From contig NZ_CP015971.1 in the NCBI RefSeq assembly GCF_001659705.1, positions 2,793,029 to 2,857,028 of the forward strand: a DNA stretch of 64,000 nucleotides, given 5' to 3'. The DNA is from Arachidicoccus sp. BS20 (GTDB taxonomy: Bacteria; Bacteroidota; Bacteroidia; Chitinophagales; Chitinophagaceae). Position 1 is the stretch's first letter. Each line of letters begins with the position of its first letter. Under the pieces are notes generated by a model that worked only from the letters and a program-made list of their open reading frames with translations, searched no databases and was not told the DNA's origin. Positions 26,283 through 61,906 of this stretch are shown here, piece after piece. Made by a program: the position numbers and the translations under genes.

Positions 26283-26936
26283 ATGCTGAAAGCAGTAAAT
26301 ATTCACAAAAAATACAACCAGTTAGAAGTTTTAAAAGGCGTGAGTCTTGAAATTGCGCAGCGCGAAATTGTTTCGATAGTAGGCTCATCCGGCGCAGGAA
26401 AAACCACGCTGCTGCATATTTTAGGAACTTTGGACAGCGCCGATAAAGGAGAAATTTACCTGAACAATCAGCCTTTCCATCATTTGCGCGATAAGAAGCT
26501 CGCCGATTTCCGTAATAAAAATATCGGTTTCGTTTTTCAGTTTCATCATTTGCTGCCGGAATTTACGGCATTGGAAAATGTATGTATTCCGGGCTGGCTT
26601 GCAGGCAGAAAAAAGAAAGAAGTAGAAACTGAAGCCGCGCGCCTTCTTTCGATTTTGGGATTAAAAGACAGAATTGAAAACAAACCGAACCAATTAAGCG
26701 GCGGCGAACAGCAACGCGTTGCCGTGGCGCGTGCGCTTATCAATAAACCGTCAATTGTGTTTGCAGACGAACCTACGGGCAACCTCGACAGCGCAAATGC
26801 AAAAGAACTGCACAATCTTTTTTTTCAACTGAGAGAAGAATTTAGCCAGACATTTTTAATTGTTACGCACAACGAAGAACTTGCCGCGATGAGCGACCGC
26901 ATTCTGAAAATGAAAGACGGACTGATTGAAGAATAA
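26283..26936 (+). CDS. lolD: LolD-like ABC transporter ATP-binding protein
   Basis: The 217-residue protein is a complete ABC ATPase of the LolD/MacB class. Walker A is GSSGAGKT (34-41), the Q-loop is [18 protein letters not shown], the signature is [15 protein letters not shown], and Walker B with the D-loop is [14 protein letters not shown]. LolD drives release of lipoproteins from the inner membrane with LolC/E permeases. No LolC/E gene is adjacent, so another FtsX-type permease could be the partner. Followed by a repeat element and the convergent lptG. Confidence 0.88.
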
Positions 26937-26943
26937 TTTTTTC

Positions 26944-27108
26944 ATTTAACCACATAGATACATAGTCAATTAAAAAGTCAAAACCTGTTTATAATTTAAG
27001 CAGGGAGAAATCATAAGTATTTTCATCGAAAGATGAAAATCTATGTGTTGCTATTACATTTCGCTTCGATTATCTATACAAGAAAACTATGTTTCTATGT
27101 GGTTAAAT
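26944..27108. repeat. MITE-like non-coding repeat, copy 1
   Basis: The 165-bp element has terminal inverted repeats at 26944-26965 and 27087-27108 (22 bp, one mismatch), with ends reading TTTAACCACATAG inward. An internal hairpin TTTTCATC-GAAA-GATGAAAA lies near its middle. The interior aligns with 45490-45662 in inverted orientation. No open reading frame or clear target-site duplication. It fills the gap between two convergent genes. Confidence 0.8.
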
Positions 27109-27111
27109 ATT

Positions 27112-28206
27112 CTATTTGGGCGCTTTTCGGTATAAATAAATTGCTACGATTGCGAATACAATATTGGGAAGCCACGCAGCAATAAGCGGTGGAAAATTTG
27201 CTTTGGTAGAAAAGATAGTGGAAAATCTGTCCATTAAAATAAAAACGGCTGCCAGCACAAAACCGATAGCCAAATGCGCGCCGCTGCCGCCGCGAACTTT
27301 TCGACCGGCAATTACAGCACCAATCATCGTCAAAATCAGTACAGAAATGGGCGTGGCAAACCTGTGATAAAATTCTATTTTATATGAGTTTACATCTTCG
27401 CCGCCGCGCAGTTCTTCCAGTTTTATTTTTTGCCAAAGTTTAGGCGTTGTCAATTTCACTTCGGCATATTGGTCGTCTTTTAAATCTGTCGGGTCAAATT
27501 TGAAATATACTTTTTTTTCAGGATAATATTTTACGGTTTCAACGCCTTTGTTAAACGTTCGTTCCACTACGCTTTGCAGGTTCCAGTGTGCGCCGTGCGC
27601 CGTGTCCCAGCGAATGGAAGCCGACCTCAAATTATAGACCAGTTCGTGATTTTTCAGGCGCATCATAAAAAATGGTCCGCCGCTTTTATTCACTGCATCA
27701 AAGTTGTGAATGCCGTTGTAGGTAAAAGAATCTGTTTTAAAATACAGCATCGGTGCGTGCTTTACAAGCTTGTCGTAGCTTGAGTTTCCGTGTACGTACA
27801 CATCTTCAAAATACGTGCGTTTTATTTCTGCGGGCGGAACAATAAATGAAGCCGCAACACCCAGTAACAAACACAATGCAATGCCCGTAAAAAGATACGG
27901 ACGAAGAAAACGCTTAAAGCTTGTGCCACTTGCGAGAATAGCAATGATTTCGCTGCGCCCCGCCATTTTCGATGTAAAAAAAATCACAGCAATAAATACG
28001 AACAAAGGAAACAGCAGCGCGATAATATGTGGAATGAAAGAGAGATAATAATCTTTAAAAATTTTGTACGCCGACCAACCGCTTTTTACAAAATCATCCG
28101 TTTTTTCGCCAATATCGATTACCACAGAAATTACGGTAAACAGAAAAATGGCGAAGAAAAACGTGGTTAAGAAATTCTTGATAATGTACCGGTCAATCTT
28201 CTTCAT
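27112..28206 (-). CDS. lptG: LptG/YjgQ-family lipopolysaccharide export permease
   Basis: The 364-residue protein has the LptF/LptG layout: N-terminal helices (about 12-34, 55-80, 98-122), a periplasmic beta-jellyroll of about 145 residues, and three C-terminal helices (about 275-297, 306-325, 330-350). MKKIDRYIIKNFL at the start, SKMAGRSEIIAILASG and the closing YLYRK are typical. With LptB and a partner permease it lifts LPS from the inner membrane. The partner and lptB are not in the window. Bacteroidota often carry several family members, so lptG versus lptF is a best guess. Confidence 0.9.
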   Translation of the reverse strand: MKKIDRYIIKNFLTTFFFAIFLFTVISVVIDIGEKTDDFVKSGWSAYKIFKDYYLSFIPHIIALLFPLFVFIAVIFFTSKMAGRSEIIAILASGTSFKRFLRPYLFTGIALCLLLGVAASFIVPPAEIKRTYFEDVYVHGNSSYDKLVKHAPMLYFKTDSFTYNGIHNFDAVNKSGGPFFMMRLKNHELVYNLRSASIRWDTAHGAHWNLQSVVERTFNKGVETVKYYPEKKVYFKFDPTDLKDDQYAEVKLTTPKLWQKIKLEELRGGEDVNSYKIEFYHRFATPISVLILTMIGAVIAGRKVRGGSGAHLAIGFVLAAVFILMDRFSTIFSTKANFPPLIAAWLPNIVFAIVAIYLYRKAPK

Positions 28207-44493: not shown

Positions 44494-45444
44494 ATGAATG
44501 TAGCGAAAGATTTGACATTGAATGAAATTATCCGTACAATTGATAATGCGAAGAATGACCAAAATAATATTTGTTTGGTCTGTCCCCAAAACGATAAAGA
44601 CGAATTTGCCTCATCTCAACTGAATAAATCAGTCAATTTTGCTTTACTGAAAACCGAAGGTCGCGTGTCGGAAAATCTGCCATACAGGTTAATTGACCAT
44701 TACGCTGTTGTGTTGTGTTTGAAAGGCTCGTGTAAGAAAACGGTCGGACATTATGCCTTTGCTGTTCAGCCCGGAAGTTTGCACATTATTTTCCCGGGAA
44801 TGATTAATACGTTTGATGAAGTTTCTGAAGATTTACAATTATACATGGTTCTTTTCAGGAGAGATTTTTTTGCTGATTTGTCCGTTAAAGACAGGATGCT
44901 GGAGAATATTTTGGATTCCGGTCTTGATTTTCCGCCGGTTTGTAATTTGGACGATACAAATTTTGCGGCGGTAAAATTATTGATGGAACAAATGCACGGC
45001 GAATACGCCCGGCAAGGATTGTATCACACACAAATTATACAATCCATGCTGATGCAATTGTTTTATCTCACGGGAAGATTTTTGCAGGATTCGGTACAGC
45101 GGCAACCAATGCATTCTTCGCGCAGTCATCAATTAACTCAGCAATTCAAGCGCGAAGTAGGCAACCACTTTCTTACCAAAAGAACCGTGCAGGAATACGC
45201 CGATATGCTTTTTGTAACTTCTAAATATTTGAGTGAAGTTGTAAAGCAGGAAACGGGCGAACCGGCACTAAAGCTCATTCATAAGCGGCTTTATTACGAG
45301 GCACTTTATTTGCTTAATTATTCTTCCATGAGCATCAAAGAAATTTCCGACTTTCTCAATTTTGATACGCCCTCTCATTTCAGTCGTTTCTTCAAGCAGT
45401 TCGCAGGTTACGCGCCGTCGGCACTCAAGAAAGGCGCAGCGTAA
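44494..45444 (+). CDS. AraC-family transcription regulator
   Basis: The 316-residue protein has an N-terminal cupin-like sensing domain (about 55-135, with VVLCLKGSCKKTVGHYAFAV and GSLHIIFPGMINTFDEV). The C-terminal two-helix-turn-helix DNA-binding domain spans about 215-312 (VQEYADMLFVTSKYLSEVVK; MSIKEISDFLNFDTPSHFSR; KQFAGYAPSALKK). Such proteins control transport and degradation genes. The ligand and targets are unknown. It is not next to an obvious target operon; a MITE-like repeat and a small porin gene follow on the same strand. Confidence 0.9.
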   Translation: MNVAKDLTLNEIIRTIDNAKNDQNNICLVCPQNDKDEFASSQLNKSVNFALLKTEGRVSENLPYRLIDHYAVVLCLKGSCKKTVGHYAFAVQPGSLHIIFPGMINTFDEVSEDLQLYMVLFRRDFFADLSVKDRMLENILDSGLDFPPVCNLDDTNFAAVKLLMEQMHGEYARQGLYHTQIIQSMLMQLFYLTGRFLQDSVQRQPMHSSRSHQLTQQFKREVGNHFLTKRTVQEYADMLFVTSKYLSEVVKQETGEPALKLIHKRLYYEALYLLNYSSMSIKEISDFLNFDTPSHFSRFFKQFAGYAPSALKKGAA

Positions 45445-45489: not shown

Positions 45490-45662
45490 AATTTTAACCA
45501 CATAGAAACATAGTTTTTATAGATGAACGCAGCGAAAAATAAAATCGCACAGTAGATTTTTATCTTTGATGAGAATACTATGATTTTCTGCACGCTCTAA
45601 TAACAAGCAATCTCACTCTTATTTCTTCAACTAAATTCTAATGTTTCTATGTGGTTAAAATT
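45490..45662. repeat. MITE-like non-coding repeat, copy 2
   Basis: The 173-bp element has perfect 22-bp terminal inverted repeats at 45490-45511 and 45641-45662. The interior read on the minus strand aligns with copy 1 (26944-27108), sharing for example TAGTATT/TAAGTATT, AAAATCTA and TTTTTCGCTGCGTTC/TTTCGCTTCGATT. No open reading frame. It sits between two genes on the same strand. Confidence 0.8.
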
Positions 45663-45856
45663 AGTTTTATCTGTGCATCTGTGGCTTCATTCTTCCAAAA
45701 ATCCATACCGAAAAATTGGTTAGTATCGCCGAAGTTTTGGAATTGCAGCCCGTATTTTCCCGGCGTAATTTTGCATCGTCAAAAAGAGTTGGAGAATAGT
45801 TACTGCGCAGTAAGTCATAAACTCTGAGGCGATTATAAAAATTTAAAAAATAGAAT
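45663..45856 (+). other. spacer between the repeat and the porin gene
   Basis: No gene is seen. A perfect 14-bp palindrome TTACTGCGCAGTAA at 45800-45813 lies 43 bases before the porin ATG and is a candidate operator. The other bases show no TAnnTTTG box and no terminator. Confidence 0.4.
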
Positions 45857-46411
45857 ATGAACAAGAAGTTAACTAAAATCGGAATTTTATCGGTAGCGTT
45901 TTTATTGGCTGTAGTATTCCGTTCCAATGCGCAATCTGCAACACGCTCAAGCATTATTTTAGGCGTTGGTCCGCAGGCAAGTCTTCCGCTTAGCAATTTT
46001 AAAGACAATTATAACTGGTCTTTGGGCGGCTCTGTTCAGGCAGATTTTGCAATTGTAAAGAAAGATCTATATGTAGTAGTAAATGGTGGATTTGACAATT
46101 ATTTTGCAAAGGGCGATGCTAAAGATTTGCAGATTATTCCCGCACAGGCAGGTTTGAAATATTATTTCCCTACAACCAACCTGTACATTCAGGGAACTGC
46201 CGGCGCAGGTTTCATTGTTGATAAAAAAGATGTGGGCGCAGACAAGTCTGCATCATTCATCTATACTCCGCAAATCGGTTATTTGTTGCCAATTGCGAAA
46301 AACAGCTATCTTGACTTTGGTGTAAATTTCCGCGGACAAACCAAATTTGTTGACGGTGGAAAATCAAACAATGCTATTGGCTTGAGAGTGGCTTACAACT
46401 TCGGACTATAA
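45857..46411 (+). CDS. small outer-membrane beta-barrel protein
   Basis: The 184-residue protein has a signal peptide (residues 1-26, ending FRSNAQ) and alternating hydrophobic strands: SSIILGVGPQASLPLS, YNWSLGGSVQADFAIV, LYIQGTAGAGFIV and SYLDFGVNFRGQTKF, ending with the aromatic strand LRVAYNFGL that barrel insertion needs. It matches the small porin or OmpW/OprG-like families common in Bacteroidota. Cargo unknown. Terminator 24 bases after the stop. Confidence 0.85.
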   Translation: MNKKLTKIGILSVAFLLAVVFRSNAQSATRSSIILGVGPQASLPLSNFKDNYNWSLGGSVQADFAIVKKDLYVVVNGGFDNYFAKGDAKDLQIIPAQAGLKYYFPTTNLYIQGTAGAGFIVDKKDVGADKSASFIYTPQIGYLLPIAKNSYLDFGVNFRGQTKFVDGGKSNNAIGLRVAYNFGL

Positions 46412-61835: not shown

Positions 61836-61906
61836 CGTCATGCCGAACTCGTTTCGGCATCTCTTGGTAAGCCGTTTTAAGATGCCGAAACGAGTTCGGC
61901 ATGACG
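61836..61906. repeat. 27-bp perfect palindromic repeat
   Basis: The arms 61836-61862 and 61880-61906 are perfect reverse complements of 27 bases with a 17-base loop. Each arm can also fold alone (GCCGAAC with GTTTCGGC). The right arm read on the minus strand translates RHAELVSAS, a peptide that recurs at the ends of spurious predicted genes in Bacteroidota. It lies between the anti-sigma gene and the first DUF4252 gene. Confidence 0.85.

Follow-up and report, generated by a model that had tools for sequence, protein, structure and literature searches.

A dispersed palindromic element in Arachidicoccus sp. BS20 whose ends enclose a GxxExxY gene in other genomes

The element in the window and in its genome

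The window analysed here is a 64-kb stretch of the 3.49-Mb, single-contig genome of Arachidicoccus sp. BS20 (G000:C1:2793029-2857028). In the gap between two convergent ORFs lies a non-coding element of 165 bp, copy 1, whose terminal 23 bases on either side form inverted repeats with 95.7% identity (22/23). Its ends follow the layout AACC-ACATAG-nn-ACATAG plus the reverse complement, and its centre is a hairpin, often with CATAG and CTATG on the flanks. A second copy lies 18.4 kb away in inverted orientation. Because the two copies are 82% identical across copy 1 positions 65-164, their interiors partly match besides the ends. All of this bears out the original prediction, which had described a 165-bp non-coding element with terminal inverted repeats in a convergent gap and an inverted second copy matching it in the interior as well. 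The features are listed in Table 1.

Table 1. Positions of the two copies, their parts and their neighbouring genes in the window
Feature	Position	Strand	Basis
Copy 1, dispersed palindromic element, CACATAG type, non-coding	26944-27108	+	One of 34 genome copies
Left 18-bp core end of copy 1, AACCACATAGATACATAG, two CACATAG-type units, period 8	26948-26965	+	End pattern
Secondary hairpin CCTGTTTATAATTTAAGCAGG, left half of copy 1	26984-27004	+	Paired in minimum-energy fold
Central hairpin TTTTCATC-GAAA-GATGAAAA	27020-27039	+	Copy 1 sequence, stem counts
Right 18-bp core end of copy 1, CTATGTTTCTATGTGGTT on the + strand	27087-27104	-	End pattern
ORF left of copy 1, presumably an ABC-type ATPase, LolD-like	26283-26936	+	ORF list
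ORF right of copy 1, presumably an LptF/LptG-type permease	27112-28206	-	ORF list
Copy 2	45496-45656 (G000:C1:2838524-2838684)	-	BLAST, covariance model
Gene left of copy 2, presumably an AraC-type regulator	44494-45444	+	ORF list
Gene right of copy 2, presumably a small outer-membrane-type protein	45857-46411	+	ORF list

Two other palindromic features were seen in the window. A lone ATCTGTGCATCTGTGGC end of the CACAGAT type sits just right of copy 2 (45669-45685). Positions 61836-61906 hold a perfect 27-bp inverted repeat, CGTCATGCCGAACTCGTTTCGGCATCT, with a 17-nt spacer; a near copy of one of its arms occurs beside a mini-element at locus L093, and the repeat may represent another dispersed palindrome family.

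A BLAST search of the genome with copy 1 gave 29 matches at E <= 1e-3, the best non-self match having an E value of 2.8e-23. The end pattern, with at most 2 mismatches, identified 64 ends, against 1 for the reversed control pattern. Together with a covariance model built from 18 copies, these searches yielded about 34 copies in total and, besides these, a few ends that are shortened or stand alone. The original prediction, which had staked itself on a genome-wide search finding further copies and on interior similarity above chance, was confirmed in both respects. Of the 34 copies, 27 are 131-168 bp long, one is 197 bp and four are 213-226 bp; the copies at L093 and L094 (44 and 59 bp) have lost most of the interior, a similar short copy of ~40 bp lies at L022, and the copy at L097 has a degenerate left end. 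The mean column identity of 72% among 18 aligned copies suggests that they are old. According to a mechanical ORF call, all 34 are intergenic; ORFs of 63-78 aa overlap four of them and none overlaps copy 1. In its terminal inverted repeats, its lack of coding capacity and its many copies per genome, the element matches the definition of a MITE.

The predicted GNRA-type hairpin is real, but its GNRA loop is peculiar to copy 1. A central stem of at least 6 bp is present in 25 of 30 copies (6.7 expected), in most of them as TTTTCATC/GATGAAAA or a close variant, and the whole conserved centre, namely the stem with CATAG-like and CTATG-like motifs, in 13 of 30 (0.05 expected). Among the 30 loops read by script (four copies gave no match), only that of copy 1 is a GAAA tetraloop; the other 29 are 3 nt long (TTC 15, GAA 8, TTT 4, AAA 1, TTA 1). 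TTC and GAA, as well as TTT and AAA, are reverse-complement pairs. Since the sequence outside the loop does not change orientation, it looks as though the central loop alone flipped via template switching or cruciform processing. The secondary hairpin of copy 1 is variable among the other copies.

Spread of the ends and their surroundings

The ends of the element turned out to be far more widespread than its interior. In a collection of 84,980 species genomes, the exact paired ends AACCACATAGnnACATAG...CTATGTnnCTATGTGGTT, separated by a gap of 105-135, occurred in 90 stretches. All 90 carry titles that we take, from the organism names, to be Bacteroidota: Flavobacterium, Pedobacter, Parapedobacter, Belliella, Algoriphagus, Elizabethkingia, Daejeonella, Sediminibacterium, Marinifilum and others, with Saprospiraceae also among them. 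In 20 genomes, the own genome and 19 chosen from the pattern matches, we counted 8-108 ends per genome and 0-1 for the reversed control. The covariance model of the own type matched 2 of the 98 genomes in a family sample (the own genome and G007) and 2 of the 6 genomes of the genus (the own genome and, with one weak match, G101). The own-type pattern CATCnnnGATGAAAAnCT... had 0 matches in the genome collection, from which the own genome may be absent. An initial superfamily pattern had the wrong spacing; it matched 35 of the 98 family genomes, missed the own genome and was dropped. Its corrected, looser form AACCACnnAGnnACnnAG matched 32 of 118 genomes in a phylum sample, many of them through single matches no more frequent than those of the reversed control. 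Carriage by phages or plasmids was rejected: blastn with copy 1 had no match in either collection, and paired ends in viral contigs amounted to 0 long and 2 short ones.

The external copies have different interiors. Nevertheless, 59 of 74 have a central stem of at least 6 bp (14.6 expected), its sequence varying between lineages, and 21 of 74 have the conserved centre of stem plus CATAG-like and CTATG-like motifs (0.15 expected). Short versions of about 40-83 bp also exist. One site could be compared within the genus in its filled and empty states: in the gap next to pheT, the element is present in the own genome and absent in five congeners, in one of which (G098) pheT came as two pieces. The site at the permease gene is no test of this kind because the congener loci read there have no ABC neighbour.

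We then considered the sequences immediately around the copies. At the 33 own copies there was no target-site duplication beyond chance, with direct repeats of at least 9 bp at 4 of 33 (3.09 expected). Among the external copies such repeats flanked 15 of 77 (6.26 expected), Flavobacterium composites being among them, and repeats of at least 12 bp flanked 3 of the 77 (0.16 expected). Outer inverted arms of at least 9 bp were more frequent than chance: 18 of the 77 external copies lie between such arms, with 4.05 expected, as do 6 of the 33 own copies, with 2.31 expected. At five Flavobacterium loci the whole element sits inside a larger unit with AGGTCAAACGCATT-type arms; by eye, four of these (L196, L255, L257 and L234) have flanking direct repeats of 7-12 bp, and at L188 the left side falls beyond the locus end.

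Several further arrangements of this kind were observed. Complete or partial outer arms of the CCTGTTTAAAC / GTTTAAACAGG type occur at L034, L035, L056 and L099 of the own genome and at L089-L091 of G007, which makes them another nested palindrome layer in two genera of the family. At L041 of the own genome (G000:C1:3079805), the element lies within a palindrome GCCACAGATGCACGGATG...CATTCGTGCATCTGTGGC of the CRC-nn-AT end type. Outer arms of the GTTTAAAC type were rejected as a general feature, as only a few copies have them.

A GxxExxY gene between the ends

In two other genomes, inward-facing CACATAG ends were found around one ORF: a 472-bp stretch in Bacteroidetes UBA2475 (G217, from L187; C14:129029-129500) and a 467-bp stretch in a Bacteroidia MAG (G228, from L228; C12:26508-26974). 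The enclosed ORF is ~141 aa long, and its stop codon abuts the right end in both. Both ORFs encode GxxExxY proteins (TIGR04256, E 2.6e-35 and 3.8e-36, plus PF13366, PDDEXK_3), which belong to the PD-(D/E)XK nuclease superfamily. Full-length relatives with the same ends, for which the original prediction had advised a search, thus exist in other genomes; the gene they carry is GxxExxY and not the transposase it had foreseen. The same 18-bp ends that enclose this gene also delimit the 165-bp copies, which carry none.

Across 50 genomes, a search for GxxExxY gave 159 matches summed over 37 genomes. Of the 28 genomes with such ends 27 had the gene, and of the 22 without such ends 10 did (Fisher p 5.2e-5), both groups having been picked by their ends. 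The 28 include four genomes with related end types (G105, G111, G116 and G153) and two with few ends (G147 and G007); the 22 comprise 18 without an exact pattern match and 4 congeners without a model match. Among members of the genus, 7 GxxExxY loci were found in the own genome and none in any of these 4 congeners, the fifth congener (G101) lying outside the search. The single end-bearing exception is Flavobacterium ranwuense (G219), with 8 ends and no GxxExxY.

We examined the flanking sequences of 92 GxxExxY loci: 30 from the first search, 60 further ones from end-bearing genomes, and L283 and L284. Inverted repeats of at least 14 bp between the two flanks were present at 20 of 90 loci (1.35 expected). 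With a specific test for CCRC-type inverted ends (inverted 18-mers matching at least 14/18 within 350-bp flanks), 40 of 92 loci passed, compared with expectations of 5.7 for mismatched loci and 0.4 for random places. At 33 of the 40 passing loci both arms lie within 200 bp of the gene match; at the other 7 one arm lies farther off than 200 bp, perhaps as part of a neighbouring element. The remaining 52 of 92 loci fell below 14/18. Seven of the 92 loci come from genomes without ends, and 3 of these 7 passed. In a second set of 20 loci from genomes without ends, 3 passed by score, against 0 of 60 shifted control places, and 5 more (L386, L392, L395, L396 and L401) have inverted arms of the CRC-nn-A type by eye. 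Of the 40 paired cases, 32 show a full-length, gene-bearing form of 432-552 bp, and examples of the ends are GCCACGAATTACACGAAT, CCCGCAGAATACGCAGAC, ACCACAAAGAGCTCAAAG and ACCACATAGAAACATAGA. In gene-bearing elements of several end types, direct repeats of at least 7 bp were found at 4 of 40 (5.55 expected), none beyond chance. About 3.1 kb to the right of the window, L317 (G000:C1:2860141-2860494) holds a GxxExxY gene with ACCACAAAG-type inverted ends.

The end type tracks the protein clade. On a tree of 92 GxxExxY proteins, made by a quick method from 118 columns, 4 changes suffice for the CACATAG label, which 18 of the 43 labelled rows bear, compared with 14.0 after shuffling and with 0 of 500 shuffles as low. 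Three of the labels were assigned by hand, a broken row sits in the wrong place, and near-copies such as L283 and L284 favour clustering. A CACATAG-labelled gene was found in 11 of 19 named end-rich genomes, judged by the loci read. Among the 92 pattern-fetched loci (L184-L275), three have a GxxExxY gene near CACATAG ends (L198, L224 and L249). L249, in Belliella calami, shows CACATAG palindromes of 64-70 bp in tandem arrays on both sides of the gene. In the own genome, 6 of the GxxExxY loci could be placed, all outside the CACATAG clade; the seventh is broken and unplaceable. No matching-clade gene was found there.

The protein itself carries the residues D (100%), E (99%) and K (99%) across the 92 rows, which we ourselves assign to the PD-(D/E)XK motif. 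A structure model made from 3 rows has a mean pLDDT of 43, a quality insufficient for fold searching; its helix/strand order is compatible with a PD-(D/E)XK core. Of two PDB sequence searches, one returned nothing and the other one weak match (4ic1, E 0.1). PADLOC had no match for the GxxExxY proteins, and in PHROGs one of two such proteins had a single weak match (phrog_1706, E 0.0009). No relatives were found in viral contigs (two queries) or in phages. Eight plasmid records had a GxxExxY match, and two passed by score, namely Bacteroides finegoldii (17/18) and Gemmatirosa (18/18), the latter with several repeats of this kind surrounding its gene. By eye, inverted CRC-type arms are present in Bernardetia, Sphingomonas and Treponema, direct repeats in Fusobacteria and Prevotella, and nothing clear in Persicobacter. 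On the Sphingomonas parapaucimobilis plasmid (L380, NZ_CP155749.1), the gene lies between fabD and fabG, apparently as an insertion into a fatty-acid operon.

Competing accounts and the proposed mobile family

Taken as a whole, we put a probability of roughly 0.6 on the reading that the 165-bp element belongs, as a non-autonomous member, to a family of short palindrome-ended mobile elements whose full-length form carries GxxExxY. The element is probably mobilised in trans. The ends of the family consist of two tandem CRC-nn-A(G/T) units facing inward, and different GxxExxY clades are paired with different end units, CACATAG being the unit here. This reading is backed by the shared ends, the gene that lies between them elsewhere, the match of end type with protein clade, the conserved D, E and K residues, the co-occurrence of gene and ends, and the pheT site that is filled here and empty in five congeners. 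Against it count the own genome, where no placed GxxExxY gene is of the CACATAG clade, the 52 of 92 loci below 14/18, the passing loci from genomes chosen for their lack of such ends, and the end-bearing G219 without the gene. By inference, GxxExxY would recognise and cleave either the ends or the palindrome, and gene-less copies would be moved by it in trans. Copies would then spread by repair or by hairpin-centred insertion and not through a DDE transposase, as suggested by the lack of target duplication beyond chance at the own and gene-bearing copies. The direct repeats at some external copies are not predicted by such a duplication-free mechanism and speak against it.

The relation could also be the reverse, with GxxExxY as a passenger that homes into existing palindromes. 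Here the palindromes would be older, either host or selfish hairpins such as terminators or REP-like repeats; GxxExxY would be a free-standing nuclease gene inserting into their centres, and the 165-bp copies would be its target sites and not the offspring of a nuclease element. Elements lying between the arms of other palindromes above chance, in both the external and the own set, would fit this account, as would the short versions and the gene-bearing elements free of duplications beyond chance. Nevertheless, the long form has a conserved centre of its own, and 34 copies were reached in a genome where no matching-clade gene was seen. We therefore regard homing as unlikely.

On another account, the element would be a classical MITE that owes its mobility to a DDE-type IS, so far unsampled, with the same ends. 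This would explain the terminal inverted repeats, the copy number, the intergenic position and the absence of coding capacity, and the long direct repeats at three external copies would be in its favour. However, the ends that the pattern identified in the own genome pair at 44-226 bp, with no pair of transposase size, and in none of 80 external loci are the nearest facing ends more than 189 bp apart. No ends shared with a transposase-bearing IS were found among the own-genome ends or in these 80 loci, the gene that does lie between such ends is GxxExxY, and the own copies show no target duplication beyond chance. This makes the account quite improbable. The element is MITE-like in spirit, as had been proposed from its inverted ends, multiple copies and non-coding sequence; the partner found is GxxExxY, with no transposase and no target duplication at the own copies.

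It had also been suggested that copy 1 may act as a two-way terminator at its site, and in a broader form the element would be a sequence-conserved terminator or mRNA 3'-end hairpin, selected and immobile. The RNA fold of copy 1 is strong (z -7.95), the flanks read outward are A-rich and then T-rich, and external copies lie at a median distance of 17 nt from a stop codon and 58 nt from a start. Among 64 external copies used, 35 were in co-directional gaps, 14 in convergent gaps, 8 in divergent gaps and 7 inside mechanical ORFs; other gaps at the same loci were 139 co-directional, 31 convergent and 45 divergent, so convergent gaps are over-represented (14 of 57 placed copies vs 31 of 215 background gaps). 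By contrast, a terminator scan at copy 1, looking for a GC-containing stem followed by a T-run, found 0, and the gaps of the 34 own copies are mixed, with 23 co-directional, 6 convergent and 5 divergent. Within the co-directional gaps, a hand count gave 13 copies along the gene direction and 9 against, with one short symmetric copy unassigned; the own copies thus have no clear orientation preference relative to genes. The consensus fold shows almost no covariation. Rfam returned nothing above the gathering score for positions 26700-27400, the sole match up to E 5 being SNORA15 (20.8 bits vs a gathering score of 47). The sharp presence differences among congeners and the use of the ends to bracket a gene also argue against immobile terminators, and the exact 18-bp ends kept across the phylum suggest a sequence-specific reader. 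A terminator or RNA role was rejected on these grounds: a dedicated two-way terminator is not supported as the general role of the element, and the selected, immobile form is very improbable. Incidental termination at some copies is possible, given the strong fold and T-rich flanks.

REP/REPIN-type repeats moved by a RAYT (an IS200/IS605-type Y1 transposase) would likewise be palindromic and intergenic, and the own genome has three Y1_Tnp matches, but no CACATAG ends flank any of these three genes, which have other palindromes or motifs there, and this origin is hardly credible. Each of the three RAYT-like genes (L100, L101 and L102) is accompanied by a different set of repeated palindromes or motifs: in L101 a single CCACAGAG-type palindrome stands upstream of the gene, and in L102 CTTCGGAATTTGTAATTCCGAAG is one of the repeats nearby.

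Known repeats differ from the element in other ways. Rickettsia palindromic elements are palindromic and multicopy, with a mover that is unknown, and many lie inside genes. Compared by description only, they differ from the element here, whose 34 copies are intergenic by the mechanical ORF call. ERIC and other enterobacterial repeat units are intergenic, 103-168 bp long and likened to MITEs (PMC2759123); by description only, these are enterobacterial whereas the present element belongs to Bacteroidota. Bacterial MITEs such as BrickBuilt of Porphyromonas gingivalis (PMC4596501) and that of Cardinium (PMC9769881) are likewise short and multicopy, with inverted ends and no transposase of their own. 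BrickBuilt is strictly intergenic (PMC10969869) with ends resembling those of the IS5-family ISPg1/ISPg9 (PMC4596501), and an IS982-family element gave rise to the Cardinium MITE (PMC9769881). For the element here, by contrast, neither a transposase partner nor target duplication beyond chance at its own copies was found, and the gene that such ends enclose is of the PD-(D/E)XK superfamily. REP/REPIN sequences are also palindromic, extragenic and thought to be moved in trans (PMC3733652, PMC3116915). In the present genome, by contrast, the Y1 genes have other palindromes beside them, and by reading the ends do not look GTAG- or CGTC-tagged. In the open-licence papers found, GxxExxY appears as an annotation only, with no role given, and no description of a GxxExxY-palindrome link was found there; an earlier account elsewhere is possible. 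A search of that literature for the end sequences gave no bacterial repeat paper among the matches listed.

Returning to a GxxExxY-borne mobile family, no CACATAG-clade gene was seen in the own genome, and the family is therefore perhaps dormant there. Its CACATAG copies are probably inactive remnants of past spread, or are moved by a relative. More broadly, and with even odds in our estimate, GxxExxY genes would form a new class of mobile DNA with clade-specific ends and no target duplication, and its gene-less derivatives would be many of the intergenic palindromes of Bacteroidota. Members of this putative class would be ~0.43-0.55 kb long and carry one PD-(D/E)XK nuclease-family gene between paired heptamer ends, CRC-nn-A[G/T], and some gene-less derivatives would be stacked as nested palindromes. 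The class would occur in Bacteroidota and, from the plasmid records, apparently also in Gemmatimonadota, Alphaproteobacteria and Spirochaetota.

The shared ends point to an unrecognised route by which short palindromes travel through bacterial genomes. If the link holds, the ends beside each GxxExxY gene predict the DNA target of that protein, so that the question is testable at once. The role of GxxExxY and the origin of the intergenic palindromes of Bacteroidota would then have one answer: the protein and the palindromes would be two parts of one mobile system without a recognised transposase.
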